Positions 7,905 to 22,405 of a stretch of DNA of 64,000 bases are shown here, one piece after another (within the stretch, counting starts at the first letter, position 1; each line of letters begins with the position of its first letter). The position numbers and the translations under genes are program-made. This DNA is from Paracoccus albus. Its GTDB lineage: Bacteria; Pseudomonadota; Alphaproteobacteria; Rhodobacterales; Rhodobacteraceae. The notes beneath the pieces were generated by a model. The model saw only the letters and a list, made by a program, of their open reading frames with translations. It was not told the DNA's origin and searched no databases. Location: assembly GCF_027913035.1 (NCBI RefSeq), contig NZ_CP115775.1:2626501-2690500 (forward strand). The letters run 5' to 3'.

Positions 7905-8945
7905 TCACGAGATCATGAACCCGCTGACATCCTCGGGGGAGATCTGTACACGAATCTTCGCCCGCAGCGCATCCAGACCGACGCTCATGAGATCGTCGTT
8001 GAAATCCCCCAGCATGGGCGAGAGCGTGATCGCCTCGATCCCGGCCTCATAAGCCCGGTCCACCAGCCGATCCCGCGCGCTGTCGCCTGCCGGATCGTTG
8101 TCGCGGACGATATAGAGCCTGCGCAGATGCGGCGGGAACAGGATGGCGGCGAGATGCCCGGCCGAAAGGGCCGAAATCATCGGCATCGTCGGCAGTGCCT
8201 GACGCAGCGAGAGGATGGTCTCGATCCCCTCGCCTGCCGCCATGACATCCCTCGCACACCCGAACCGAACGCCGTGCCCGAGCAGATTTCCCATCGCCTT
8301 TCGCGGCGGATCGACAGGTGCTTTCCCGGAGCCGTCGCGCTTGAGCCAGGTGCGATGTGCCCCGGTGATTATGCCGTCGAGGTCAGTGACGACGGCGATC
8401 ATGGCGGGCCATGTCTCGGTCGCTCCATCGCCCTCGGGCCGCCAGTAGCAATTCGGATGGAAACGCAAATTGGCGGTTTCGCGCAGATCGGTAATGCCGC
8501 GATTGCGCAGATAGGTCGCTGCAATTGAGCCGGCCAGCGGTTGCGTCATGCGCCAGAGGCGGCGGGCCGCCTCGGAGGAGCCTGATGGTGCTGGCGGTTT
8601 TCCGGACCGGCGGGACCGTGGCCCCGGTTCGGGATGCTGCAGGCTGAGAAAGCGCCGGGCTTCCTCGGCAATATCGAAAAATTCGACCAGCCCGAGGCTG
8701 TCGCGAATGACATCGAGCAAATCGCCATGCTCCCCGGTGGCGGAATCTGTCCATTTCCCCGCCGCGCCCTTGCCGGCCTCCGATCCGGTCAGACGCACGA
8801 ACATCGAACGTCCCGGCGTGTTGCGCACATCGCCGACCTGCCAGTAATTGCCCTGCTTGCGCCCATTCGACAGATAATGGCGGCACACAGCCTCGGCCTC
8901 ACGGCCAAGACGCTGCGCCAGCTCCGAAGCGTTGAGACGCGCCAT
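7905..8945 (-). CDS. toprim domain protein (primase/helicase-like)
   Basis: A 346-residue protein. The N-terminal 90 residues contain a DUF7146-like region (AAGKWTDSATGEHGDLLDVI). The C-terminal half is a toprim domain with the acidic residues in AAGEGIETILSLRQ and IVRDNDPAGD. Proteins of this type are putative DNA primases of plasmids and integrative elements. The start ATG (8945-8943) shares one base with the stop of the upstream methylase/helicase (TAATG), so the two are translationally coupled and probably work together. The frame extends upstream to 9476, but that part is antisense-like and not conserved. No helicase domain is fused to it. Confidence 0.9.
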   Translation of the reverse strand: MARLNASELAQRLGREAEAVCRHYLSNGRKQGNYWQVGDVRNTPGRSMFVRLTGSEAGKGAAGKWTDSATGEHGDLLDVIRDSLGLVEFFDIAEEARRFLSLQHPEPGPRSRRSGKPPAPSGSSEAARRLWRMTQPLAGSIAATYLRNRGITDLRETANLRFHPNCYWRPEGDGATETWPAMIAVVTDLDGIITGAHRTWLKRDGSGKAPVDPPRKAMGNLLGHGVRFGCARDVMAAGEGIETILSLRQALPTMPMISALSAGHLAAILFPPHLRRLYIVRDNDPAGDSARDRLVDRAYEAGIEAITLSPMLGDFNDDLMSVGLDALRAKIRVQISPEDVSGFMIS

Positions 8946-11900
8946 TACGCCGCCTCCCGCTCGGAGATGTGCACGATCGGGAAACGCTCGAGGAGTTTGG
9001 CCGTGACCTCCGGGCCTACTGCCCCGACCGGCACGAAGAAACGCAGCTTCCAGGAAATGATCTCGCTGAAGAGGCCATAGGCCCTGAGCCGCTCGCGCAT
9101 CGCATCGGTGAAGCCGCAAAGTTCGATCCGGTTTGCGCCCATGACACGGGACCGGCGCAGTTGCAGCCCTTCGGCAAGATCGAGGATCGTGCGGGTTTCG
9201 ATCAGCGCGGCATAGGCCGCATCGGGCGTGATGCTGGTCGCACCCCCCATCGCAGAAGCGGTTGCAGCCCATGCCGGCGACACGCGGCGACCGATGATCC
9301 TCTCGCCCTCGTCGGTCTGAAGCCGATAGACGCGGGCGGAATCCTGCGGCAGGCGTTTCCAGATCGGCAGCAAAAGCCCCGTCACCATATGCAGGATGCT
9401 GTCTGTGAACTCCGGGACCTCGGCCAGTTCTGCCTCCCAGGCGGCGGTGAATGTGGCCTGCTCGGCCTCGACCCAATGAGTTTCATCTATCGCCCGCACG
9501 GAGATATTCATCGCTTCCATGGGCCGGATCAGCCGCACGCGCCGCTCGATCTCGCCATCATCCAGCATGATGCTGGTGGTCGGGATCTGCACAGCGGCGC
9601 GACCAGATCGTTCATTGACGAGCAGCCTCGCGCGCGGGTCATCCAGTTCCGCCAGCGCCGCTTCCAGCACCACCGGCTGATTGCGCTTGCGTTCGGTCAG
9701 GGTCAGAAGCCAGGTTTCCGCGCCCGTGCCAGGATGGGTATGGATTACTTGCCGGTCGGTGACGATGAAGCTCTCAGCGTGCAACGTCTCCAGCCCCATG
9801 TCATAGGCGCCGGAGGCCATCGCCCCGTCGATTCGAGCTTGCAGAAGCTGCTCGAAGGCCGAGAACAGGATGCCCTGCAACTCGCTGGTCAGGGCCAGCA
9901 GCCGATTGAGGAAGGTGGTGATCGGCGGCAGATCGTCCTTGATGCCATTACTGTCCATCAGCTTCAGACCGGTGGCGGATTCAAACCGCTCCAGCGAGCA
10001 TCCTTCGACCTTGCCGCGCACAATGAGAAGATAGAGCTGTCGCAGCGCGTCACGGGCATAGGGACTTTCCAGATTGTCCTCAGGGCGGAAGAGGCCCTGA
10101 CCGCCGGTCTGTCGCTGACCGCGGGTGATCGCGCCCAGCGTATCGAGGCGGCGGGCAATGGTCGACAGGAAGCGCTTTTCCGCCTTCACATCTGTGGCGA
10201 TGGGCCGGAAGAGTGGCGGCTGCGCCTGATTGGTGCGGTTGGTGCGCCCCAGCCCCTGAATGGCGGCGTCGGCTTTCCAGCCCGGCTCCAGCAGATAATG
10301 CACCCGCAGCCGCTGGTTTCTGGCGGAAAGTTCGGCATGATAGCTGCGCCCGGTGCCGCCGGCATCCGAGAAGATCAGGATGCGCTTCTGATCATCCATG
10401 AAGGCCGAGGTTTCGGCAAGGTTGGCGGAGGGAGCCCGGTTCTCGACCGCCAAACGCGCCGCCGGACCTTCACCCTTGCGCACGATCCGGCGCGAACGTC
10501 CTGTCACCTCGGCCACCATATCGGTGCCGAAACGCTGCACGATCTGATCAAGCGCGCCGGGAACGGGCGGTAGGCTGGCAAGCTGCTCGATCATCTCGTC
10601 ACGCCGGGCGACGGCTTCGCGGCTTTCGACGGGCTGGCCATCGCGGAAGACGGGCCGGGACGAGAGGTTGCCTTCGCCATCGGTGAAAGGCTCGTAAAGC
10701 TGGACCGGGAAGGAATGCTGCAAATACGAGCCGACATATTCCCGTGGGGTAATGTCCACGGCAATATCGTTCCATTCCTCGGTCGGGATCTCTGCCAGCC
10801 GGCGTTCCATCAGCGCCTCGCCGGTCGAGACGATCTGGATCACGGCGGCATGGCCTGCCTCCAGGTCGGATTCGATGGACCCGATCAGGGTCGGCGTTTT
10901 CATCGAGGTCAGCAGATGGCCGAAGAAGCGCTGCTTGGTGCTCTCGAAGGCCGAGCGAGCGGCGGATTTCGCCTGCCGGTTCAGCGTGCCTTCGCTGCCA
11001 GTGATGTTGGCGGCTTCCATGGCTGCGTCGAGATTGTTGTGAATGACGGCGAAAGCCCCGGCATAAGCATCATAGATGCGGCGCTGTTCGTCGGTCAGGC
11101 GGTGCTCGACCAGCTCATACTCCACGCCGTCATAGGAGAGCGAACGCGCTGCATAGAGGCCGAGCGATCGCAGATCGCGGGCCACCACCTCCATGGCAGC
11201 CACGCCGCCGGCCTCGATCGCCTCGACAAACTCGGCGCGGGTCTGGAACGGGAAACCCTCACCGCCCCAGAGCCCGAGCCGCTGCGCATAGGCGAGATTG
11301 TGAACCGTGGTAGCGCCGGTCGCCGAGACATAGGCCATGCGCGCATCCGGCAGCGCATGCTGAAGCCGCAGCCCGGCACGTCCCTGCTGCGAGGCGGCGA
11401 CATCGCCGCGTTCGCCCTTGCCGCCACCGGCATTCTGCATGGCATGGCTTTCGTCGAAAATGATGACCCCATCGAAACCCTCGCCCAACCAATCGACGAT
11501 CTGGCGCACACGCGAAACCTTTTCGCCACGCGCGTCGGAGCGCAGCGTGGCATAGGTTGTAAACAGGATGCCCTCCGACAGCGTGATCGGCTTGCCTTGC
11601 GGGAAGCGCGAGAGCGGCGTGACCAGCAGCCGCTCCATGCCGAGAGCCGACCAGTCGCGCTGCGCATCCTCGATCAGCTTGTCGGATTTCGAGATCCAGA
11701 CCGCCTTTCGCCGCCCGCGCAGCCAGTTGTCGAGGATGATCCCCGCCGATTGGCGTCCCTTGCCCGCACCAGTCCCGTCACCAAGCATGAAACCCCGGCG
11801 AAAGCGGACAACGCCCGCAGCATCCTCGGGTGCAGCACTCACTGTGTCGAAGGTTTCGTCCACGGTCCAGGCACCGGCCAGATGATCAGCATGGGCTTCG

Positions 11901-13264
11901 CCGGCATAGATCACGGTCTCCAGCTGCGCATCCGACAGACGGCCATGGATATCGGCGGGGAGCATCGGCCGGTAGGAGGGCTTGGGCGGCGCAACTGAGG
12001 CCATGGCGGCGGATTGCACCAGCCTGGTCGGATGCGGCGCAGCGCCCGGAATGCGCAGCGATTGCAGCGCATATTCCTCATAGATCGCGTCGGAGAGATG
12101 CGCGCCGTCAGGCGGCGTCCAGTCCACTGTCTCATAGGCGAGCTCCACGCCCCCGGGATCGTGGGCCGTAGGGGCGCCAGGCCGGGATGCGGCACGGGCG
12201 AGATAGCCCCGCACCGTCTTCGGCGTGGTGGCCGAAGCGGAGGCGACCGCCGTTGGCAGCGCCACCGGCAACCGCATTGGCACTTCAGCTTCGATCCAGC
12301 CGAGCAGCGTCGCGATATCGGGCGCAATACCCTTTGATGCCTGGAAAATGGCCGGATCACCGGCGGGAAGCTTGTCGATCACTGTCAGTCGTGTGTCGAA
12401 CGTCGTGCCGTGTTTTGCATAGACCGCACCTTCGATAGCCGCGGTGAACACCACGCGGCCGCGCTTCTGCAAACGGGTGAACGCATCGCGCCAGGCCGGA
12501 GCATCGGGGCTGAAATTTGCGCCAGTGATCGTGACCAGCCGCCCTCCCGGCGCAAGCCGGGCCAGCGCCGAGGCAACATGCCGGTAGGCTGCATCGGCCA
12601 CACGGCCGCTGACATTGGCCATGACCGAGAATGGTGGGTTCATCAACACCACAGACGGCACCGCGACCGGGGACAGATGATCATCAATTTGGGAGGCATC
12701 GAAACGGGTGACAGAAAGGGCCGGAAAGAGAGAGGACAGAAGATCGGCGCGGGTATCGGCGAGTTCGTTGAGGATCAGCGAACCGCCCATGGTCTGCGCC
12801 AGGATCGCCAGAAGGCCGGTGCCCGCCGATGGCTCCAGCACCCTGTCATCAGGTGTGATCGCAGCTGCTGTCAGAGCGGCAAGGCCCAATGGCAGAGGGG
12901 TGCTGAATTGCTGGAAGGTCTGGCTTTCTTCAGAACGGCGGGTCTGGCTCGGCAACAGTGCCGCGATCTTCGTCAGGTGATCCAGCCGCGCCACAGGGGA
13001 TTTCGCCTTGCTAAACAGCGCCTTTCCGTATTTGCGCAGAAACAGGACGGTGGCCATCTCGCAGGCCTCATAGGCCAGCTTCCAGTCCCAGGCGCCGCTG
13101 GCATCAGATGCGCCAAAGGCCTTTTCCATCGCATCGCGCAGGATCGTGGCGTCGACGCACTGGCCGCGTTCAAGATGGGGCAGCAGGAGATTGGCAGCAG
13201 CCAGGATCGCGGGCGCAGCCGCCAGCGGCGTGACCGGATCGGTCACGGGAGACGAAATATTCAT
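8945..13264 (-). CDS. strawberry notch-like helicase with an N-terminal methyltransferase domain
   Basis: A 1439-residue protein with two enzymatic parts. Residues about 120-300 form a class I methyltransferase with SAM motif EPSAGTG (144-150) and the N6-adenine/N4-cytosine active-site motif NPPF (209-212). Residues about 430-1100 form a superfamily 2 helicase of the strawberry notch type, with Walker A GDGTGAGKGRQ (495-505), DESH box (604-607) and a motif VI-like GLGRTNRTNQ. The remaining C-terminus is the SNO C-terminal domain. Such proteins are hallmark cargo of large plasmids, phages and ICEs and may modify or remodel incoming DNA; their exact role is not established. The gene is coupled to the toprim gene by TAATG. 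Confidence 0.92.
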   Translation of the reverse strand: MNISSPVTDPVTPLAAAPAILAAANLLLPHLERGQCVDATILRDAMEKAFGASDASGAWDWKLAYEACEMATVLFLRKYGKALFSKAKSPVARLDHLTKIAALLPSQTRRSEESQTFQQFSTPLPLGLAALTAAAITPDDRVLEPSAGTGLLAILAQTMGGSLILNELADTRADLLSSLFPALSVTRFDASQIDDHLSPVAVPSVVLMNPPFSVMANVSGRVADAAYRHVASALARLAPGGRLVTITGANFSPDAPAWRDAFTRLQKRGRVVFTAAIEGAVYAKHGTTFDTRLTVIDKLPAGDPAIFQASKGIAPDIATLLGWIEAEVPMRLPVALPTAVASASATTPKTVRGYLARAASRPGAPTAHDPGGVELAYETVDWTPPDGAHLSDAIYEEYALQSLRIPGAAPHPTRLVQSAAMASVAPPKPSYRPMLPADIHGRLSDAQLETVIYAGEAHADHLAGAWTVDETFDTVSAAPEDAAGVVRFRRGFMLGDGTGAGKGRQSAGIILDNWLRGRRKAVWISKSDKLIEDAQRDWSALGMERLLVTPLSRFPQGKPITLSEGILFTTYATLRSDARGEKVSRVRQIVDWLGEGFDGVIIFDESHAMQNAGGGKGERGDVAASQQGRAGLRLQHALPDARMAYVSATGATTVHNLAYAQRLGLWGGEGFPFQTRAEFVEAIEAGGVAAMEVVARDLRSLGLYAARSLSYDGVEYELVEHRLTDEQRRIYDAYAGAFAVIHNNLDAAMEAANITGSEGTLNRQAKSAARSAFESTKQRFFGHLLTSMKTPTLIGSIESDLEAGHAAVIQIVSTGEALMERRLAEIPTEEWNDIAVDITPREYVGSYLQHSFPVQLYEPFTDGEGNLSSRPVFRDGQPVESREAVARRDEMIEQLASLPPVPGALDQIVQRFGTDMVAEVTGRSRRIVRKGEGPAARLAVENRAPSANLAETSAFMDDQKRILIFSDAGGTGRSYHAELSARNQRLRVHYLLEPGWKADAAIQGLGRTNRTNQAQPPLFRPIATDVKAEKRFLSTIARRLDTLGAITRGQRQTGGQGLFRPEDNLESPYARDALRQLYLLIVRGKVEGCSLERFESATGLKLMDSNGIKDDLPPITTFLNRLLALTSELQGILFSAFEQLLQARIDGAMASGAYDMGLETLHAESFIVTDRQVIHTHPGTGAETWLLTLTERKRNQPVVLEAALAELDDPRARLLVNERSGRAAVQIPTTSIMLDDGEIERRVRLIRPMEAMNISVRAIDETHWVEAEQATFTAAWEAELAEVPEFTDSILHMVTGLLLPIWKRLPQDSARVYRLQTDEGERIIGRRVSPAWAATASAMGGATSITPDAAYAALIETRTILDLAEGLQLRRSRVMGANRIELCGFTDAMRERLRAYGLFSEIISWKLRFFVPVGAVGPEVTAKLLERFPIVHISEREAA

Positions 13265-13274
13265 GTCGGAAAAC

Positions 13275-13341
13275 CTCGGGAGAGCGGGAACAGGAAAGAC
13301 GGGCAGCGCTCTCTCTGGGCTGACCCGGCTTACCCGACCCC
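13275..13341 (-). promoter_or_regulatory. structured leader of the methylase/helicase gene (family 2)
   Basis: On the minus strand a GAGAGCG arm and a CGCTCTC arm enclose a loop of about 22 bases, and a ribosome-binding site (GAGG) follows the stem directly, 10-14 bases before the ATG. The same arrangement occurs before the DUF6878 gene at 16155-16226. It may modulate translation; this is inferred from similarity alone. Confidence 0.5.
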
Positions 13342-13600
13342 GGCGAAGCTCTGACTCTGGAAGGACAAGCCCAGACAGACCATGCGCCCGGATTGACCCG
13401 GCGCAGCCCGCGCAAGGGATCGTCGCCCGAAGGGAGGAGACTGCCGCGCAGGCTCCCGTCGTTCACGACCAGAGCCTGGTCACGGCTTGCCGGGAGGCGC
13501 CAAACATAGCGTGGTTCCAAGGCCCAGTGAACCCTATGCTGTCAGGCACAAAGCAGGGAAATCATCCCGAGCAGCACGCGACTGTTCATCGAATCTGACT
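13342..13600. other. intergenic stretch without a supported gene
   Basis: GC-rich sequence between two minus-strand genes. I see no coding pattern and no clear terminator. It probably contains the promoter of the methylase/helicase operon. Confidence 0.5.
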
Positions 13601-14693: not shown

Positions 14694-15218
14694 TCAAGCG
14701 GCCAGCGGCTGGCGCAGCAGCGTGGCGGCGGTTTCCCGCCAGAGCGGATCGACCAGTCGGCCATCAAGCGCGGCGGCGCGGAACCGCAGGGCCTGCGCCT
14801 CGGCGGGCGCATCGCGATCCAGCGCCACCATGGCCTGCGCCCGCAACTGGCAGGCTTCCTGCACGACATGACGGGCCTCGGCATCCGAGGCGACCGGATT
14901 GCACCAGACCAGCCCCGCAAGCGTGATCCGCCCGGCAAGGCAGAGCCGCTGCTGGCCATCCATGAGGATCAGAAGGTTTGGCGTGAAACCCGGCAGGAGA
15001 TCGGCGCGGATGCCGCCCTGCTGCCCCCGGCGCAGGGCGCAGGCCATGACCTCCCCAACCGCGCGGAACCGGCCGAGCAGGATGGAGGTCTGAACCGGCC
15101 AGACACCAAGGTCGGGGTCATGCGCAAGGGCTTCCCCCGCGCAAGACAGGCTGAATGGACAGCCAGCGGCCGTCACAGGCGTCACGCCGATTTTGATACG
15201 GGAAACATGGGTGTTCAT
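14694..15218 (-). CDS. hypothetical protein with a structured leader
   Basis: A 174-residue protein starting at 15218 (MNTHVSRIKIGVTPVTA). It has many alanines and arginines, no membrane segment and no motif I recognise. The start is supported by GGAGG nine bases upstream, which lies inside the 3' arm of a strong hairpin also found before the ArdC and ParB genes. Its place in the same minus-strand series suggests a shared regulatory regime. Function unknown. Confidence 0.65.
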   Translation of the reverse strand: MNTHVSRIKIGVTPVTAAGCPFSLSCAGEALAHDPDLGVWPVQTSILLGRFRAVGEVMACALRRGQQGGIRADLLPGFTPNLLILMDGQQRLCLAGRITLAGLVWCNPVASDAEARHVVQEACQLRAQAMVALDRDAPAEAQALRFRAAALDGRLVDPLWRETAATLLRQPLAA

Positions 15219-15225
15219 GGCAAAA

Positions 15226-15282
15226 GCCTCCGCGACGGGCGGCGGAGGCCTTTCCTCCACCCTTGCAACCCGTCACGGAAAC
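15226..15282 (-). promoter_or_regulatory. Shine-Dalgarno-sequestering leader (family 1, copy B)
   Basis: The arms at 15269-15279 and 15229-15239 form an 11-bp stem with one G-U pair; the loop contains a second hairpin (GGAGG-loop-CCTCC). The downstream arm CCCGTCGCGGA runs into GGAGG, the ribosome-binding site of the 174-residue protein. The arm sequences are identical to those before the ArdC gene. Confidence 0.6.
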
Positions 15283-15300
15283 CCCGGCCTGCCACTGCCT

Positions 15301-15663
15301 CTATCGCGCCGCCATCGCCGGATCGACCAGCGCCTCGATCTTTTGCGTCCGGCCCATCCACGGCTCCGACCGGATGGCGCGTGCCCAGTCCGCGAAGCTG
15401 GGAATGAAGCCCAGATCCTCGCGCACATGCTGCTTGCCCACCCAGCGGGTCGGGATCACCCGGCCCGTGGAGAGGCTGAGTATCGGTCCAAAAATCGTCT
15501 CCAGCATGAACACGCCCTCGGCATGATGGCGAAGCGCGCGATGCCGGAAATCCGCTGTGATTTCCTTGCTTTGATCGAACCACGCATGCAGAGACATGAA
15601 GTCATAGACCTCGCCGCCCCATTTCTTCACCGAGGACAGGGAATGATGATAAGGATGCGCCAT
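15301..15663 (-). CDS. DUF6915-like protein
   Basis: A 120-residue protein starting MAHPYHHSLSSVKKWGG and containing DFRHRALRHHAEGVFMLE and EDLGFIPSFADWARAI. I recall this wording as the DUF6915 family, small histidine-rich proteins of unknown role on alphaproteobacterial mobile elements. The ribosome-binding site AGGACGGAAAG lies inside the end of the upstream DUF6878-like gene, which overlaps it by 62 bases, so the pair is an operon. The dense His residues (HPYHH, HHAEG) could bind metal; that is inference. Confidence 0.75.
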   Translation of the reverse strand: MAHPYHHSLSSVKKWGGEVYDFMSLHAWFDQSKEITADFRHRALRHHAEGVFMLETIFGPILSLSTGRVIPTRWVGKQHVREDLGFIPSFADWARAIRSEPWMGRTQKIEALVDPAMAAR

Positions 15664-16147
15664 CTTTCCGTCCTAAGAAGGTGTGTTGATGGGAGTCGGC
15701 GGCAGTGTAGCGCTCGTTATAGTCGAGCGTGATTTCCCGTTCCGCCACGTCGAAGGTGAATTCGCCATAGGTGCCGTCGTTGTTCTCCCAGCCGCCATGG
15801 GTTTCCGCGAGGAAGTCATAGGCAAGCTGTTCGACGGCCTCGGCGACCGTCATGGCCTGTTCAACGATCGCGTCATCGCCCCAGCTGGTGGTAGCGATGA
15901 TGATCTGCGCCTCGGGCAGGTTCACGGTCTCGCCGCCGGTGAGCGCCGAGATATCCTCGACCTGGCCGCTGTCGCCATAGCCATCGAAGGTGACGATGAC
16001 CTGCGTGACGCCGACGGCAACCAGCGTATCGAACAGGGCGGTCTTGTTGGCCGGGCGGAGGATGGCGGCGCGGGCCTCATAGGCGGCGTGATCCGCCTGA
16101 ACGCGCGCCATGGAGGCGGCGAAGTCGAACGGTTTGGGATCGGTCAT
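15602..16147 (-). CDS. DUF6878-like protein
   Basis: A 181-residue protein starting at 16147 (MTDPKPFDFAASMARVQ). The core has TQVIVTFDGYGDSGQVEDI and LAETHGGWENNDGTYGEF followed by ITLDYNERY, typical of the DUF6878 family of mobile-element proteins with no known function. Relatives as I recall them end near the HQHTF position; here the frame continues about 23 residues into the next gene, so the original stop may have been lost. The ribosome-binding site CGGAGATCCCGC follows a hairpin leader like that of the methylase/helicase gene. Confidence 0.78.
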   Translation of the reverse strand: MTDPKPFDFAASMARVQADHAAYEARAAILRPANKTALFDTLVAVGVTQVIVTFDGYGDSGQVEDISALTGGETVNLPEAQIIIATTSWGDDAIVEQAMTVAEAVEQLAYDFLAETHGGWENNDGTYGEFTFDVAEREITLDYNERYTAADSHQHTFLGRKDGASLSSFPVLGEEMGRRGL

Positions 16148-16154
16148 GCGGGAT

Positions 16155-16226
16155 CTCCGGGAGAGCGGTGAAAGGATGAACCGACCGGCGCTCTCTCAAA
16201 CCGATAGGCTCGCCCCCTCCCGACCC
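16155..16226 (-). promoter_or_regulatory. structured leader of the DUF6878-like gene (family 2)
   Basis: GAGAGAGCG and CGCTCTCCC arms with a pyrimidine-rich loop; the Shine-Dalgarno CGGAG follows the second arm directly. It is closely similar to the leader at 13275-13341. Confidence 0.5.
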
Positions 16227-16292
16227 GCCTTTTCCTCTCGCGGCCCCGGCGGAATCGCACCGCCGGGCGCGGGGATGAGGCGCTGTTGCGCC

Positions 16293-16839: not shown

Positions 16840-17145
16840 TCAATCCCAGAGCCCTTCGGCGATCTCTCGCGCGACCATGGCGCGGGCCTTCATCATCACA
16901 TCGTCACCCGAGGTGTCGATATGCCCGTAGAACCGCGCCCGACCGCCATGCGCTATCCAGTCGGCATAGTAACAGTATTCGCGGGCATTGAGGCGAAAGG
17001 CGTGTAAATCTGCCGCCCAATGGGGTTTCGGCTCGATCACGACCGTGACGTCATCCCGGGTTTCTTCCCAAGGCAGGGATCGCTCAGCAGGCAGATTGCG
17101 GCGGTCATCGCGGAATATCTCATCAATGTCGATGGATGCGGACAT
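16840..17145 (-). CDS. hypothetical protein, 101 residues
   Basis: The start is at 17145 (MSASIDIDEIFRDD) with ribosome-binding site TTTGGAGAACCCCA. The protein is acidic at its N-terminus, with an aromatic middle (ARFYGHIDTSGDDV) and an alanine-rich end (ARAMVAREIAEGLWD). I do not recognise a family. The terminator of the ParB-like gene ends only about 12 bases before this start, so the gene either has its own promoter within the terminator region or depends on readthrough. Confidence 0.6.
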   Translation of the reverse strand: MSASIDIDEIFRDDRRNLPAERSLPWEETRDDVTVVIEPKPHWAADLHAFRLNAREYCYYADWIAHGGRARFYGHIDTSGDDVMMKARAMVAREIAEGLWD

Positions 17146-17156
17146 TGGGGTTCTCC

Positions 17157-17186
17157 AAAGAAAAAGCCCGGTCACGAGGACCGGGC
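17157..17186 (-). terminator. intrinsic terminator after the ParB-like gene
   Basis: A perfect 8-bp stem GCCCGGTC/GACCGGGC with a 5-base loop (17166-17186), followed on the minus strand by TTTTTCTTT. This is the strongest intrinsic terminator in the island. Confidence 0.85.
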
Positions 17187-17236
17187 GAGTGTCGGAAACG
17201 GAACGGAGGGGGCGGTCATTGTCGCCCCATCTTGCC

Positions 17237-19351
17237 CTATTCGGCGGCGACGGCGTGCTGCGGGTCGTCTTCATCCTCCTCGCCGTCACCGGTGAGGAAA
17301 TCCGGCAGATCTTCGGCTTCAACATCGACAGCATCCGCCGCACCGGCCCCCACATCGGGATCAACCATGCGCAGCGGTTCGGGCAGCCAGACGGTTTCGG
17401 CCAGCAGACGTTCGGCCTCCTGCGCCATGTCGCCCTTCTTCAGGTGGTCTATCAGTTGCGCCGCCCGTTCGCCCGCGCCCTCGCGCACCGCCTCGATGAT
17501 GCGTGGCTTGGTCACCCGACCGAGATAGTTGCCGACGGTCGGCCGCCAGCCCACCGCTACCATGTCGAGCCCGGTCGCGCCCGCCAGCCGGTCGGCCTGT
17601 GATAGCCGCACGTCGAGACCATGCTGACTGACGCCCATGCCGCTATAGGGGTTCGGCTTTTCATGCAGCGCATTGACGCCGAAGCTGACGCAATGGGCGA
17701 GCAACTCCATACGGGTGCCATTGTCCTGCCCCTCAAGCCAGTCCCAGAGCGCGGCGTCATCCGCCGGGATGTGATCACCCCAGCGTTCCTGCCGCTCCTG
17801 GATGGACTTTGCCGAAGCGCTCTCGCCCAGCCCCTCGGCCTGAACGGGGAAATGCACCTCGCGGATATGGGCCTCAAGGCATCCCTTACTGGAATGCGGC
17901 AGGAAGCAATCGCTGACCAGCCGGTGCAGCAGCGCGGTCATGGCAACATGCGGATATTGCGCAACGGCGTCGCGTAGGGCCAGCGTGCGATGCGCAGTGA
18001 GTTCGCTGACAAGACGGTCCGGCAGCGGTTTGATGGCATCGGTCTCATCGTCCTCGTCGGCCTCCGGCACTACGCCGCCCACGGTGATAACGGCGCGTTG
18101 GACGCTGCCGGGCTCATCACCTTCGACAGGCAACCCATCGGCGCCATCGCCCTCCCCGCCTTTCACCACCTCCTCCTCGGGGCGGACAAAGCCACGCTCG
18201 ACGGCAAGCCCACCATCATGGCAAATACTGACAAAAACACCGGCGCGGGCCATCTGATCCGCGTCATAGCGCATGGGCCGATCCTCGAAGGCATCCAGCG
18301 CTTCCTCGATCTCACCCAGGCGCGCATCCACCTCATCGGGGAATTCGTCGGCCTCGGCATATTCCGCCTCGAGCGCGTCGAATTCGTCGCGCAGCTTTTC
18401 GCGTGCGGCACGCTCCGCATCGCTCAGGTCAATGGTGGTGCCGGTCAGACGGCGCAGACCATTGCTGTGGCCAGAGGGGAAATCCGCGGCGACCTTGATC
18501 CACTTCCAACCCTCGGCGGCGATGGTCTCAGCCTCGGCCTTCAGCTTCTCGCTCACCAGCCGGTCGAGCAGCACCGGATCCTGCAGCCAGCCGCCATCAT
18601 CCTGCTGGAAGAGATCGCGCAGCACAGTGCCGCCCGCCGCTTCATAGGCCTCAATGCCAACAAACAGCGCCCGTTTGTCGGCGGCGCGGACCCTGGTTTC
18701 GGTCAGCAGACGGCGGATATGATACGGTTCCTTCTGCCAATTGTCCTTGATCGCATCCCAGACCTGTTCCTGCCGCGCCTGATCCTGGGTGACAGTGAAC
18801 GCCATCAGCTGCTCCAGCGTCATGCCGTCCTCGGCATAGACCTCCAGCAAGGACGATGCGACCGCGGCCAGACGCAGGCGCTGTTTCACCACCTTGGCGT
18901 CGACGAAGAAGGCCGCGGCGATCTCCTCCTCGCCCATGCCCTTGTCTCGCAGGGTCTGGAAGGCGCGGAACTGATCCAGCGGATGCAGCGGCGCGCGTTC
19001 GATATTCTCGGCCAGCGACACCTCGTCGATCAGCACATTGCCGGCCTCCGAGACGACGCAGGGCACCGGCGCGGTCTTGTTCAGGCGTTTTTGCTTCACC
19101 AGCTGCTCCAGCGCCCGGAACCGCCGGCCCCCGGCAGGCACTTCGAAAAACCCGGTCTCCTTGCCCTCGGCGTCGAGTTCGGGCCGCACATGCAGCGACT
19201 GGATCAGCCCGCGACGGGCGATGGAATCGGCCAGTTCCTCGACCGAGATCCCGGCCTTGATCCGCCGGACATTGGCCTGGCTCAGCACCAGTTTGTTGAA
19301 GGGAATATCGCGCGCGGACGCGAGGGTGATTTTCTGAGTGGCATTAACCAT
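17237..19351 (-). CDS. large ParB-like partition/nuclease-family protein
   Basis: A 704-residue protein. Residues about 10-115 are a ParB/sulfiredoxin-type domain (LVLSQANVRRI, VPAGGRRFRAL and SLAENIERAPLHPLDQFRAF), followed by a helix-turn-helix-like region (GMGEEEIAAAFFVDAKVVKQRL). The rest is a long acidic region of unknown fold. Proteins of this size are standard on alphaproteobacterial plasmids and ICEs and are annotated as ParB-like; a partner ParA is not visible here. The start is taken at 19351 (MVNATQKITL) because GGAG lies eight bases upstream and upstream residues are not conserved. Its leader carries a hairpin of the same type as those before the ArdC gene and the 174-residue gene. 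Confidence 0.9.
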   Translation of the reverse strand: MVNATQKITLASARDIPFNKLVLSQANVRRIKAGISVEELADSIARRGLIQSLHVRPELDAEGKETGFFEVPAGGRRFRALEQLVKQKRLNKTAPVPCVVSEAGNVLIDEVSLAENIERAPLHPLDQFRAFQTLRDKGMGEEEIAAAFFVDAKVVKQRLRLAAVASSLLEVYAEDGMTLEQLMAFTVTQDQARQEQVWDAIKDNWQKEPYHIRRLLTETRVRAADKRALFVGIEAYEAAGGTVLRDLFQQDDGGWLQDPVLLDRLVSEKLKAEAETIAAEGWKWIKVAADFPSGHSNGLRRLTGTTIDLSDAERAAREKLRDEFDALEAEYAEADEFPDEVDARLGEIEEALDAFEDRPMRYDADQMARAGVFVSICHDGGLAVERGFVRPEEEVVKGGEGDGADGLPVEGDEPGSVQRAVITVGGVVPEADEDDETDAIKPLPDRLVSELTAHRTLALRDAVAQYPHVAMTALLHRLVSDCFLPHSSKGCLEAHIREVHFPVQAEGLGESASAKSIQERQERWGDHIPADDAALWDWLEGQDNGTRMELLAHCVSFGVNALHEKPNPYSGMGVSQHGLDVRLSQADRLAGATGLDMVAVGWRPTVGNYLGRVTKPRIIEAVREGAGERAAQLIDHLKKGDMAQEAERLLAETVWLPEPLRMVDPDVGAGAADAVDVEAEDLPDFLTGDGEEDEDDPQHAVAAE

Positions 19352-19357
19352 GGGGAT

Positions 19358-19414
19358 TGCTCCGCGACGTGCGCCGAAAGCCTCTCTCTCGGCAACCAAC
19401 CCGTCGCGACGCAC
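19358..19414 (-). promoter_or_regulatory. Shine-Dalgarno-sequestering leader (family 1, copy C)
   Basis: The arms at 19402-19408 and 19363-19369 form a perfect 7-bp stem (CGCGACG/CGTCGCG). Inside lies a second hairpin (GCCGA-loop-TCGGC). The 3' arm continues straight into the GGAG ribosome-binding site of the ParB-like gene. Confidence 0.6.
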
Positions 19415-19473
19415 AGCGCCGCCCTCTTCCTCGAAAGTGAGCGGCGCCGGATCACGGGGGCAGCGGTTGAGGA

Positions 19474-19860
19474 TCAGGGCCTTCCGATATTCTCATCGGA
19501 AGGCCTTTGACCGGCGCGAGCATAAAGCAACTGCTCAGCGCCCCGGATACTGCCGGTTTCCCGTGCGGCCTCAGCCCAAATCGAAATCGGAAGGTCGCTG
19601 GCGAAATGCAGGTCCCGCTCGATCCCCATGCCGAAGGGCAAGCGGATGGAGCGCAATTCGTCAAAGGACCAGAAACCCAATTCGGGATAGCCGAGATCGG
19701 CAAGGCCGAACATGACATCGCCCCCGGCATCCAGTTCGGTGGCGAGCCACACACCCGCGCCGAAAGGATTGAAGAATTTCACCACCGGGACGTGGTCGGT
19801 GTCGGGTTCACGGCCATTGGCGAGGAGGCGGTCACGGTGTTGGGATGTCAGGAGGATCAT
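19474..19860 (-). CDS. DUF2958 domain protein
   Basis: A 128-residue protein whose wording MILLTSQHRDRLLANG, PVVKFFNPFGAGVWLATELD and FGLADLGYPELG is typical of DUF2958, a small protein family of mobile elements with unknown function. Its start overlaps the stop of the ArdC-like gene by four bases (ATGA), so the two are translationally coupled, an arrangement seen in many alphaproteobacterial elements. No signal peptide or membrane segment. Confidence 0.92.
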   Translation of the reverse strand: MILLTSQHRDRLLANGREPDTDHVPVVKFFNPFGAGVWLATELDAGGDVMFGLADLGYPELGFWSFDELRSIRLPFGMGIERDLHFASDLPISIWAEAARETGSIRGAEQLLYARAGQRPSDENIGRP

Positions 19861-20813
19861 GCGGCTGCCCTCCCGTCAGCGCCGACGTTAGCCGTCTCGC
19901 CATCCGCTTCGGGCAGATGCTCCAGCAGCCAATTCGCCGCCTTGCTGGCTTGCGACGCGGCGCGGACAATGGCGCGATTGTCTTTGCTGAGCACCTCCAG
20001 CCAGGATCCGATATAGTCGGCATGGCGGAAGGTCGGCACGATACCGAGCGACGCACAGCAAAAGGCGGCGTTCATCTCGGCAACCAATTCTTCGAAGGCG
20101 TATGTCTTTGTGCCGAAGCCACCGGTGAGATCACGACCCAAACGAGACGCATGGCCCGAGGCATGACCCAGCTCATGCAGCGCTGTCCGGTGCCAGTTGA
20201 TCGGCTCGAAATAAGCCTGCGGCGGTGGCACCTGCACATAGTCATGTGCAGGAACATAGAAAGCCCTATTGCCGCCGATGCGGAAATCGATGTCGATGGC
20301 TTTGATCAGCGCCTCGACCCTTGGTTCGATCATGCCGGGCGGCGGTGGCGGGGCCTGGGCGGCGATGTCCTCAGGTAAACCTTGGCATTGGGCGGCGTTG
20401 AAGACAATGAAGCGTTTCAGGAAGGGGATGCGCCCCGGTTCCTCTCCAGTCTCGCGGGCGCGGCGCCTTTCCTCTTCGGGCGTGAAACGGTCTGCATAGA
20501 CGACCGTCGTGCCGCGCTCGCCCTTGCGGACATTGCCGCCAAGCGCCAGCGCCTGGCGGAAGGTCAGCCACGCCTGCGTCGGATAGCCATGCTGCACCAC
20601 CGCGCCCCAAAGAATCAGCACGTTGATCCCGGAATACTGCCGGGTGGTCGCCGCATTCCTTGGCATCGCCAGTGGCGCCTTCGCCGCCGCCGTCCCCCAA
20701 GGCTGGACCCAGGGTAGCCGCCCCGCCTCCAGCTCGGCGATGATCTTGTCGGTGATATCGTCATAAAGGTTGCTGCGCGCACCGCCGCGTGCAGCGCGGG
20801 TCTGTCTGGCCAT
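19857..20813 (-). CDS. ArdC-like antirestriction protein (ssDNA-binding domain plus metallopeptidase)
   Basis: A 318-residue protein. Residues about 15-140 form the ArdC N-terminal single-strand-DNA-binding domain (PWVQPWG, YSGINVLILWG, RKGERGTTVVYAD). Residues about 165-300 form the zincin-like metallopeptidase domain with HELGH at 213-217. ArdC-type proteins protect incoming conjugative DNA from host restriction. The start at 20813 has GGAG 11 bases upstream inside a hairpin leader. It is the last gene before the island's right end and is followed by coupled DUF2958. Confidence 0.92.
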   Translation of the reverse strand: MARQTRAARGGARSNLYDDITDKIIAELEAGRLPWVQPWGTAAAKAPLAMPRNAATTRQYSGINVLILWGAVVQHGYPTQAWLTFRQALALGGNVRKGERGTTVVYADRFTPEEERRRARETGEEPGRIPFLKRFIVFNAAQCQGLPEDIAAQAPPPPPGMIEPRVEALIKAIDIDFRIGGNRAFYVPAHDYVQVPPPQAYFEPINWHRTALHELGHASGHASRLGRDLTGGFGTKTYAFEELVAEMNAAFCCASLGIVPTFRHADYIGSWLEVLSKDNRAIVRAASQASKAANWLLEHLPEADGETANVGADGRAAA

Positions 20814-20821
20814 CGGAATAT

Positions 20822-20875
20822 TCTCCGCGACGGGCGCCGGAGGCCACTCCCCCGACCCTCAACCCGTCACGGAAC
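20822..20875 (-). promoter_or_regulatory. Shine-Dalgarno-sequestering leader (family 1, copy A)
   Basis: The arms at 20863-20873 and 20824-20834 form an 11-bp stem with a single G-U pair (TCCGTGACGGG with CCCGTCGCGGA). The loop has an inner GGAG...CTCC pairing. The downstream arm overlaps the start of the GGAG ribosome-binding site of the ArdC-like gene. Confidence 0.6.
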
Positions 20876-21298
20876 ACCCCGCCAATCTCGAACTCTCACA
20901 AGGGACGTTGCCGAGGGAATCCCTTGCTTGAAGTGGTCGGCTGAGACGCCAGGCTCGGCCCCAGGGGAAGTGCCCGCCTCCTTCGTTCATCTTCCAGATC
21001 GCGATATTCAAAGCTTCAATTAGCGGGTCTTCGACCTCCGATCAGTCGATTAGAATAGATTCAGTTGCCGAAGACTCGGGGGCAGCATGTTCAAGCGGTT
21101 TGTAGGGCGACTGACAGAGGAAGCCCTTTCGGATGGGCCTTTGTTTCTAGTTGTTAGGCCACACGGCGGGCGGGCAAAACCACGCAGCCCGATGCTCTCG
21201 AAGGCCATAGGTCCTGTGCGTTTCATCACGAGGCCGTAGACCGTCCGATCCTCAACGGTTGCTCCAAGGCATAGGCGCGACCGGTCCCGCTATCGGGG
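20876..21298. other. island right-end intergenic stretch
   Basis: No open frame here has protein-like features, and I see no integrase, excisionase or RNA gene. Base composition drops toward the right, where the junction with dusA lies. It may carry the promoter of the ArdC operon. Confidence 0.5.
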
Positions 21299-22141: not shown

Positions 22142-22211
22142 AGCTCTGGTTCCTTTCCACATGACAAGATCCCAGAGCGTCAGAAACGCGCGGGGCCAGC
22201 CCCGTTCGTCC

Positions 22212-22337
22212 CATTCTCTACCATCCGGACTTTAACCGTCGGCCCCGGAATTTCACCGGATCTGCTGACCTGCTCCGAAGAGCAGCGCTCGCGGGCTTTC
22301 ACCGCCGGTGGGGAGTTTCGCCCCGCCCTGAGAATAA
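22212..22337 (-). ncRNA. FMN riboswitch (RFN element)
   Basis: The minus strand shows the conserved RFN pieces in order: TTATTCTCAGGGCGGGG, ACTCCCCACCGGCGGT, AGCCCGCGAGCG, GATCCGGTGAAATTCCGG, CCGACGGTTAAAGTCCGGATG and a closing AGAGAAT. The P1 arms (GAGAAT region 22330-22337 and ATTCTCT 22212-22218) pair. It lies 71 bases before the ribH start. A 6-bp hairpin CGGGGC-TG-GCCCCG (22191-22204) in between is a likely part of the expression platform. FMN binding should lower ribH expression. Confidence 0.95.
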
Positions 22338-22405
22338 ACCAGAAATATGAAGCTGGATGGGCCATGTCAACGGCAGCGCCTGTGGGGACGTAACGTAGGC
22401 GCGGA

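Follow-up and report, generated by a model that had tools for sequence, protein, structure and literature searches.

A conserved RNA hairpin leader before ardC, parB-like and other genes of alphaproteobacterial mobile elements: a probable post-transcriptional regulon

To our knowledge, the switching-on of establishment genes on arrival is understood mainly in F-like plasmids, which use single-stranded DNA promoters, and in a few Bacillus plasmids. At the RNA level, leaders of the CsrA/RsmA type carry several copies of a short purine motif, ANGGA, one of them in a hairpin loop near the Shine-Dalgarno (SD) sequence. The leader described here is similar to these in its multi-copy purine motif, although the motif is AGAGK (K = G or U) and not ANGGA. 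The pertinent sections of PMC8708921 describe EGeRS1 of the Bacillus plasmid pLS20 as an inverted-repeat region that ardC shares with other establishment operons and that lies upstream of each. EGeRS1 is the closest functional precedent; here too, ardC and further genes of a single element have the same upstream element. The two differ in build: EGeRS1 is Gram-positive, multi-branched and 420-750 bp long, whereas the present leader comprises a covarying hairpin and AGAG boxes within about 75 nt, and covariation evidence is absent from those sections on EGeRS1 (PMC8708921). Frpo/ssi elements, in the part of PMC11541004 that concerns them, likewise place regulatory secondary structure before leading-region genes. 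They are DNA promoters acting in transcription, whereas the pairing reported below overlaps the SD and shows selection on the sense strand, and its bias of G-U over A-C pairs is not that of a fold selected on the template strand. STAXI, a candidate structured nucleic acid, also lies near antirestriction and other DNA-handling genes but, unlike the present leader, is a repeated pseudoknot according to the STAXI section of PMC2864571. No Rfam family named after STAXI or the radC motif (PMC2864571) matches 13.6 kb of the DNA studied here (E<=10) or seven related loci (E<=5).

The DNA in question, hereafter the window, is the whole stretch of 64,000 nt from Paracoccus albus that was analysed. A preliminary description knew of no family to which the leaders belong, and the searches agree: the leaders have no Rfam 15 match at the gathering cut-off, and the open-licence PMC papers searched yielded no described match. 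At that cut-off, the window contains only an FMN riboswitch elsewhere (22209-22339, minus strand, 116.8 bits), which lies outside the module and just 5' of a 162-residue ORF (22162-21674) that resembles lumazine synthase RibH. Relaxed searches gave nothing above chance in the 13.6 kb of window (E up to 10) and no match at E<=5 in the seven related loci. The only relaxed match overlapping one of the leaders, to Corio-PBP RNA (RF02945) before the 174-residue gene, reached 23 bits against a cut-off of 63.5 with an E-value of 1.5, which is chance level.

We consider it probable, if far from certain, that this leader is an undescribed cis-acting RNA and that it unites the establishment genes of DUF3363/Trb-type conjugative plasmids and integrated elements of Alphaproteobacteria in a post-transcriptional regulon. 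If true, a common RNA-level control would extend over this family on rhizobial, Paracoccus and sphingomonad replicons. The leader would also serve as a sequence tag for finding further establishment and anti-defence genes (p397, p182, DUF6878), and with it the quest for a regulator that binds AGAG becomes open to direct testing. The features of the window are listed below; family 1 denotes the leader itself and family 2 a longer sister form.

20887-20896, minus strand: AGAG box AGAGTTCGAG in the leader of ardC, differing from AGAGNNAGAG at one position and lying 12 nt 5' of the hairpin
20823-20874, minus strand: family-1 leader hairpin before ardC (79.0 bits), with outer stem, TTG bulge, inner hairpin, AGUGG loop and GGAG at 20826-20823
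19857-20813, minus strand: ArdC (ArdcN and MPTase-PolyVal), ATG at 20813, 9 nt after GGAG
19424-19433, minus strand: AGAG box CGAGGAAGAG in the leader of the ParB-like gene, with one mismatch
19360-19411, minus strand: family-1 leader hairpin before the ParB-like gene (71.9 bits), AGAGG loop
17237-19351, minus strand: ParB-like protein of 704 residues (ParB_N), ATG at 19351, 8 nt after GGAG
16145-16238, minus strand: probable family-2 leader before the DUF6878 gene, with AGAGGAAAAG at 16238-16229 (box by inspection), AGAGAGCG...CGCTCTCCCGGAG and ATG
15602-16147, minus strand: DUF6878 protein
15293-15302, minus strand: AGAG box of the 174-residue gene leader, AGAGGCAGTG, one mismatch
15228-15280, minus strand: family-1 leader hairpin before the 174-residue gene (76.1 bits), AAAGG loop
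14694-15218, minus strand: u174 (ATG at 15218), a divergent member of the p182 family with 42% identity to the p182 protein of locus L137; no Pfam or NCBIfam match
13262-13358, minus strand: family-2 leader before the strawberry-notch gene, with AGAG box at 13358-13349, hairpin region, CGCTCTC, GAGG and ATG
8945-13264, minus strand: strawberry-notch helicase (AAA_34, Helicase_C_4)

The preliminary description had proposed that one two-hairpin leader precedes three unrelated genes of this island. Alignment and a covariance model (R1, built from the three window leaders, ending at GGAG and leaving the ATG outside) bear this out. The arms of an 11-position outer stem, TCCGTGACGGG and CCCGTCGCGGA, are fully paired in the ardC and u174 leaders. 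The ParB leader has two G/A mismatches within this stem, one of them at the base; it had been taken for a shorter version and is in fact a full-length copy. A bulge of 6-7 nt on the 5' side, starting with TTG, is followed by an inner hairpin of 8 bp. When the leaders are aligned without structure, the letters of this hairpin differ and its pairing is intact in all three, as had been noted. The apical loop of 5 nt reads AGTGG (ardC), AAAGG (u174) or AGAGG (ParB). Most of the SD lies in the 3' arm of the outer stem, GGAG stands directly 3' of the hairpin, and the ATG follows it at 9, 9 and 8 nt for ardC, u174 and ParB, in keeping with the 8-11 bases first reported. Minimum free energies (MFE) of the 91-101 nt leader stretches are -46.8, -54.9 and -38.0 kcal/mol, and each copy has an upstream AGAGNNAGAG box with one mismatch. 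Across the host genome (3.76 Mb), the model gives three matches at E<=1, all within the window, with E-values from 2e-14 to 1e-12. A chance origin of the resemblance is excluded, because these are the only matches in the genome and relatives carry the element before the same genes.

Further leaders came from two samples. Sample (a) was a pattern scan of GTDB contigs in which loop, TTG and stem letters were fixed, and the loop letters are hence ascertained in most of the set; it returned at least 120 stretches, 80 of which were used. Together with the window and two plasmid stretches, these made up 83 sources with 144 R1 matches. Among the stretches listed, all were alphaproteobacterial or unresolved by organism name except one labelled Gammaproteobacteria. 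This contig of a metagenome-assembled genome (L118) carries p397 and ParB leader copies, by transfer or by mis-binning. Sample (b) was model-chosen and consisted of 38 stretches (L202-L239) picked by hand from the matching genomes rather than of all matches. Searching it and the window with R2 produced 86 matches, of which 76 were kept after 10 antisense shadows had been dropped.

Pairing is maintained across these leaders with marked sequence change. In the alignment fitted to the model (A4; 144 rows, 117 distinct), 95.7% of cells in 19 pairs are paired, compared with 37.6-53.7% in slid controls. Two-sided changes occur in 13 of the 19 pairs, and on each of five measures none of 500 shuffles reaches the observed value; the outermost stem pair is missing in 44 of the 117 rows. 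To avoid fitting bias, leaders were also realigned with MAFFT without structure (62 of 89 ParB leaders and 54 of 93 ArdC/p397 leaders). The ParB set retained 94.8% pairing with nine two-sided pairs (slid controls, 38.2-48.5%), and the ArdC/p397 set 96.6% with eight (32.1-48.2%). All shuffle controls for these sets stood at 0/500, except for further pair types in the ArdC/p397 set (14/500). G-U cells number 275 against 25 A-C cells (192 against 23 in the model-only set), as counts that are not corrected for phylogeny and come from leaders with shared ancestry, whose cells are not independent events. The pairing is under selection, and the sense strand is the selected molecule, since a cruciform or the complementary strand would give no such excess of G-U over A-C. 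The preliminary description had suspected selection on structure and had asked whether homologous leaders might lack covariation or merely reflect DNA duplication; covariation is strong in both kinds of alignment. Self-palindromic arms acting as a double-stranded DNA operator were considered and rejected, as pairing within an arm tends to be lost where the outer stem changes, whereas the stem is kept.

The conserved pairing is predicted to include the SD of the downstream gene. Over 116 distinct leaders, the GGA of GGAG has a mean unpaired probability of 0.148 (median 0.024), compared with 0.384 in shuffled sequences that keep GGAG, and the value is below 0.1 in 72 leaders. Mean MFE is -45.8 kcal/mol against -35.6 kcal/mol for shuffles, with a mean z-score of -3.6. 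Little sequestration is predicted for the p182 class, at 0.312 compared with 0.354 in shuffles. Folding models thus support the earlier description of a ribosome-binding site locked in a hairpin.

A second conserved part, AGAGNNAGAG, lies about 12 nt 5' of the hairpin upstream of all gene classes. Within sample (b) and the window, it is exact in 52 of 76 leaders and within one mismatch in 75, whereas shuffles contain it exactly in 3 of 1520 cases; in 72 of those 75 leaders, 11-13 nt separate its end from the hairpin. In sample (b), the apical loop most often reads GAGAGGC (47 of 76), followed by GAGAGTC (10) and GAGTGGC (7), with AGAGG in most leaders. Because the tandem box carries two copies and the loop usually repeats it, AGAGK occurs about three times per leader. 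By inspection, about half of 62 ParB leaders have an extra hairpin around the box and the others lack it, and a constant extra hairpin at this site was therefore rejected.

The position of the leader relative to coding sequence is nearly invariant. An ATG follows 143 of the 144 matches in sample (a), 141 of them 7-9 nt after GGAG; in sample (b), it follows all 76, 74 at that distance, even though the ATG is absent from the model. Five of the 76 downstream frames are shorter than 100 residues, and public CDS starts coincide with the ATG after the leader in eight of eight cases. By N-terminal patterns, the genes of sample (a) are ParB (60), ArdC (44), p397 (19), p182 (17), other (3) and none (1), and those of sample (b) are ParB (36), ArdC (19), p397 (16), p182 (1) and other (4). 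Hence, the sharing of the leader by unrelated genes, first described for this island, holds well beyond it.

Counting from the genes leads to the same picture. BLAST (at least 40% coverage) was used to identify ORFs across the unbiased loci and two plasmids; the leader precedes 19/19 ArdC, 29/32 ParB, 16/18 p397, 2/2 p182 and 3/3 u174 ORFs. It precedes 0/30 toprim and 0/30 DUF2493 ORFs in the same loci. The proposed association with ardC and parB is thus upheld. The three ParB ORFs without a leader (L204, L207 and L221) come from frame-broken genes: each is the C-terminal piece, and the leader stands before the 5' piece. As for p397, the exception in L206 is a fragment, and the gene in L207 keeps only the 3' half of the leader. 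This last case, upstream of 5113, has kept the SD arm and lost the 5' arm and is a natural stem-less variant. ArdC and p397 both carry the leader, yet none of 38 loci has the two together; in modules that are otherwise similar, either one behaves as the first gene behind this leader. The p397 protein (397 residues) is DUF932-like, matching DUF932 weakly and short of the Pfam cut-off, and may be an alternative anti-defence protein. The u174 and p182 proteins form one family. An AlphaFold model of the p182 family (mean pLDDT 75) had no PDB match at E<=0.001, and its fold was set aside as a clue to the factor on these grounds.

Strawberry-notch (SNO) genes had also been suggested as partners, and they are associated, via the longer sister leader and not the family-1 leader. 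The sister form has the same AGAGNNAGAG, a long hairpin with AGAGAGAG at its apex, a complementary CGCTCTC, GAGG and ATG; the DUF6878 gene of the window probably carries it as well. The set used to study its hairpin was selected by those very letters. A leader-independent check gave the box 91-100 nt before the ATG in 13 of 13 ORFs longer than 1200 residues (11 exact, two with one mismatch), all of them among 14 strawberry-notch matches of the unbiased loci and two plasmids. Across 32 family-2 leaders, hairpin z-scores average -2.0, with 16 below -2, and that of the window is +0.1, no more stable than shuffles. The pairing between loop and CUCUC hardly varies, so covariation is uninformative there. 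The hiding mechanism cannot be identical to that of family 1, because the SD lies outside the hairpin.

The matches fall almost entirely within one class. The R1 search found it in 19 of 289 genomes of the class Alphaproteobacteria, and all 33 matching genomes among 398 from a phylum-level draw (R2) belong to the window organism's own class or closer. One of 274 genomes sampled from a different class of the phylum had a match, and this sequence resembles a ParB remnant in decay. Building a covariance model of the three leaders and searching with it, as the preliminary description had advised, has thus recovered the same element, nearly always in Alphaproteobacteria. A short-pattern genome search gave counts near control level. 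The family-1 and family-2 patterns were not found in viral contigs, nor was the window ardC leader in phage records, and a phage origin was rejected on both counts. Loci of distant ArdC/ParB homologues were also rejected as leader carriers. In ten of 12, among them the locus of a Kozakia ArdC with 55% identity, nothing matched at E<1, and the two with the leader are alphaproteobacterial with ParB identity above 50%; beta- and gammaproteobacterial ArdC/ParB loci have it in 0 of 4 cases. As distant homologues mostly lack it, the leader is, on these sequences, a property of this element lineage and not of the ArdC and ParB families at large.

On plasmid pYP1 of Ketogulonicigenium vulgare, the module runs ArdC-DUF2958-ParB-p182-SNO-toprim-DUF736-repA-parA. 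Across the record start, it continues with an S26 peptidase, a DUF3363 relaxase (two annotated CDS), TraG and trb genes, all in one direction. DUF3363 was looked for in 24 of 49 leader-bearing genomes and was present in 18. Of 35 leader clusters, 20 have the relaxase within 50 kb, and in each of these it is found 12.8-33.2 kb downstream and on the same strand. Transcription toward the relaxase would be in line with a leading region that is read off the incoming strand. The window island may be a remnant or decayed element, since no DUF3363 relaxase was found in its host genome. An IS1182-family transposase (1323-2684) adjoins the module in the window. ProQ/FinO-family proteins occur beside ParB or ArdC on two rhizobial/agrobacterial plasmids (L242, 1-146; L249, 358-753).

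How the leader might work can be outlined from its fixed parts, namely the AGAGNNAGAG box, a spacer of mostly 11-13 nt, the two-part hairpin, an AGAGG-type apical loop and an SD-bearing 3' arm. It would act directly before ArdC or the DUF932-like p397, the ParB-like protein and p182/u174, and in its longer sister form before the strawberry-notch helicase. We infer that it is transcribed as part of the mRNA, where the outer stem would cover the SD and keep default translation low. A putative trans-acting factor for AGAGK would read the two boxes and the loop together. Such a factor could govern the translation of all leader genes jointly; they might, for example, be off in a settled cell and on following transfer. 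It would more likely lock the off state than open it, because the folded hairpin displays the loop box. The favoured candidate is a repressor of this kind, possibly the element's own protein, that would shut the genes off after establishment. The ParB-like protein, toprim, DUF2493, p397, p182, a host factor or an antisense RNA remain candidates. Two proteins were rejected as general factors on the basis of 35 of the 49 leader-bearing genomes found: ProQ/FinO, which the neighbouring genes in L242 and L249 had suggested, is encoded in 1 of the 35, and CsrA in 3 of them. A more specific form of the proposal, which we regard as tentative and short of probable, is a class-wide, post-transcriptional zygotic switch in which AGAG-box RNA and a new RNA-binding factor of element or host would let the anti-restriction, ParB-like and helicase proteins of alphaproteobacterial conjugative elements be made on arrival and then turned off once the element has settled.

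The box itself could act as DNA, because it cannot covary. On this basis, a mixed system is conceivable, if unlikely, in which the hairpin works as RNA, while a transcription regulator encoded by the element acts at the AGAGNNAGAG direct repeat, which would be its DNA operator or belong to an unusual promoter. The box is conserved in sequence without a constant surrounding structure, and its nearly fixed distance from the hairpin would then reflect a fixed transcription start; one plasmid of such elements also encodes helix-turn-helix proteins. The recurrence of AGAGK in the apical loop, however, argues for reading as RNA. Moreover, the box is not AT-rich, and inspection of profiles over 75 nt upstream revealed no promoter or partner promoter element common to the gene classes.

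The predicted SD pairing would equally suit an insulator, for which IS10 provides the precedent: read-through transcripts fold and hide the SD, while the gene's own promoter starts inside the leader and its transcript escapes. EGeRS1-B of pLS20 blocks read-through expression, according to the sections of PMC8708921 that deal with it. Such a role would make the inner hairpin, the loop and the upstream box needless if the own transcript lacks the 5' arm, yet all three are conserved, and we regard this reading as quite improbable. Less probable still is a positive element without any switch, whose stable 5' structure protects the mRNA and whose AGAG boxes form a ribosome standby site. The stable fold and the purine-rich boxes beside a structured SD are compatible with it, but the GGA of the SD is mostly predicted to be paired. 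The boxes pair with the 3' tail of 16S rRNA no better than shuffles do (-8.8 against -9.1 kcal/mol), and standby through such pairing was rejected. Finally, the structure might act in single-stranded DNA during transfer, as a Frpo-like promoter for early expression. This recalls the leading-region genes of other plasmids (in the part of PMC11541004 cited above), and among the matches listed, enterobacterial conjugative plasmids commonly carry relatives of the window ParB, most of them with less than 60% identity. We regard this reading as very improbable, given that the sense-strand G-U pairs would be mismatches on the template strand, that the hairpin overlaps the SD and that inspection of the upstream profile showed no -10/-35 elements. 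The same bias disfavours single-stranded template DNA as the working molecule.

Other leader forms occur as well. Two loci from the window organism's own family (L203 and L205) have further AGAG boxes followed by variant hairpins, SD and ATG, and more leader architectures of the AGAG-box class may exist. A GC-rich hairpin with a T-run and GGAG precedes a 101-residue gene at 17145 in the window (17158-17196, minus strand). A similar hairpin with T-run and GGAG occurs in K. vulgare (L031, upstream of 18802); this terminator-like leader is of a third kind.
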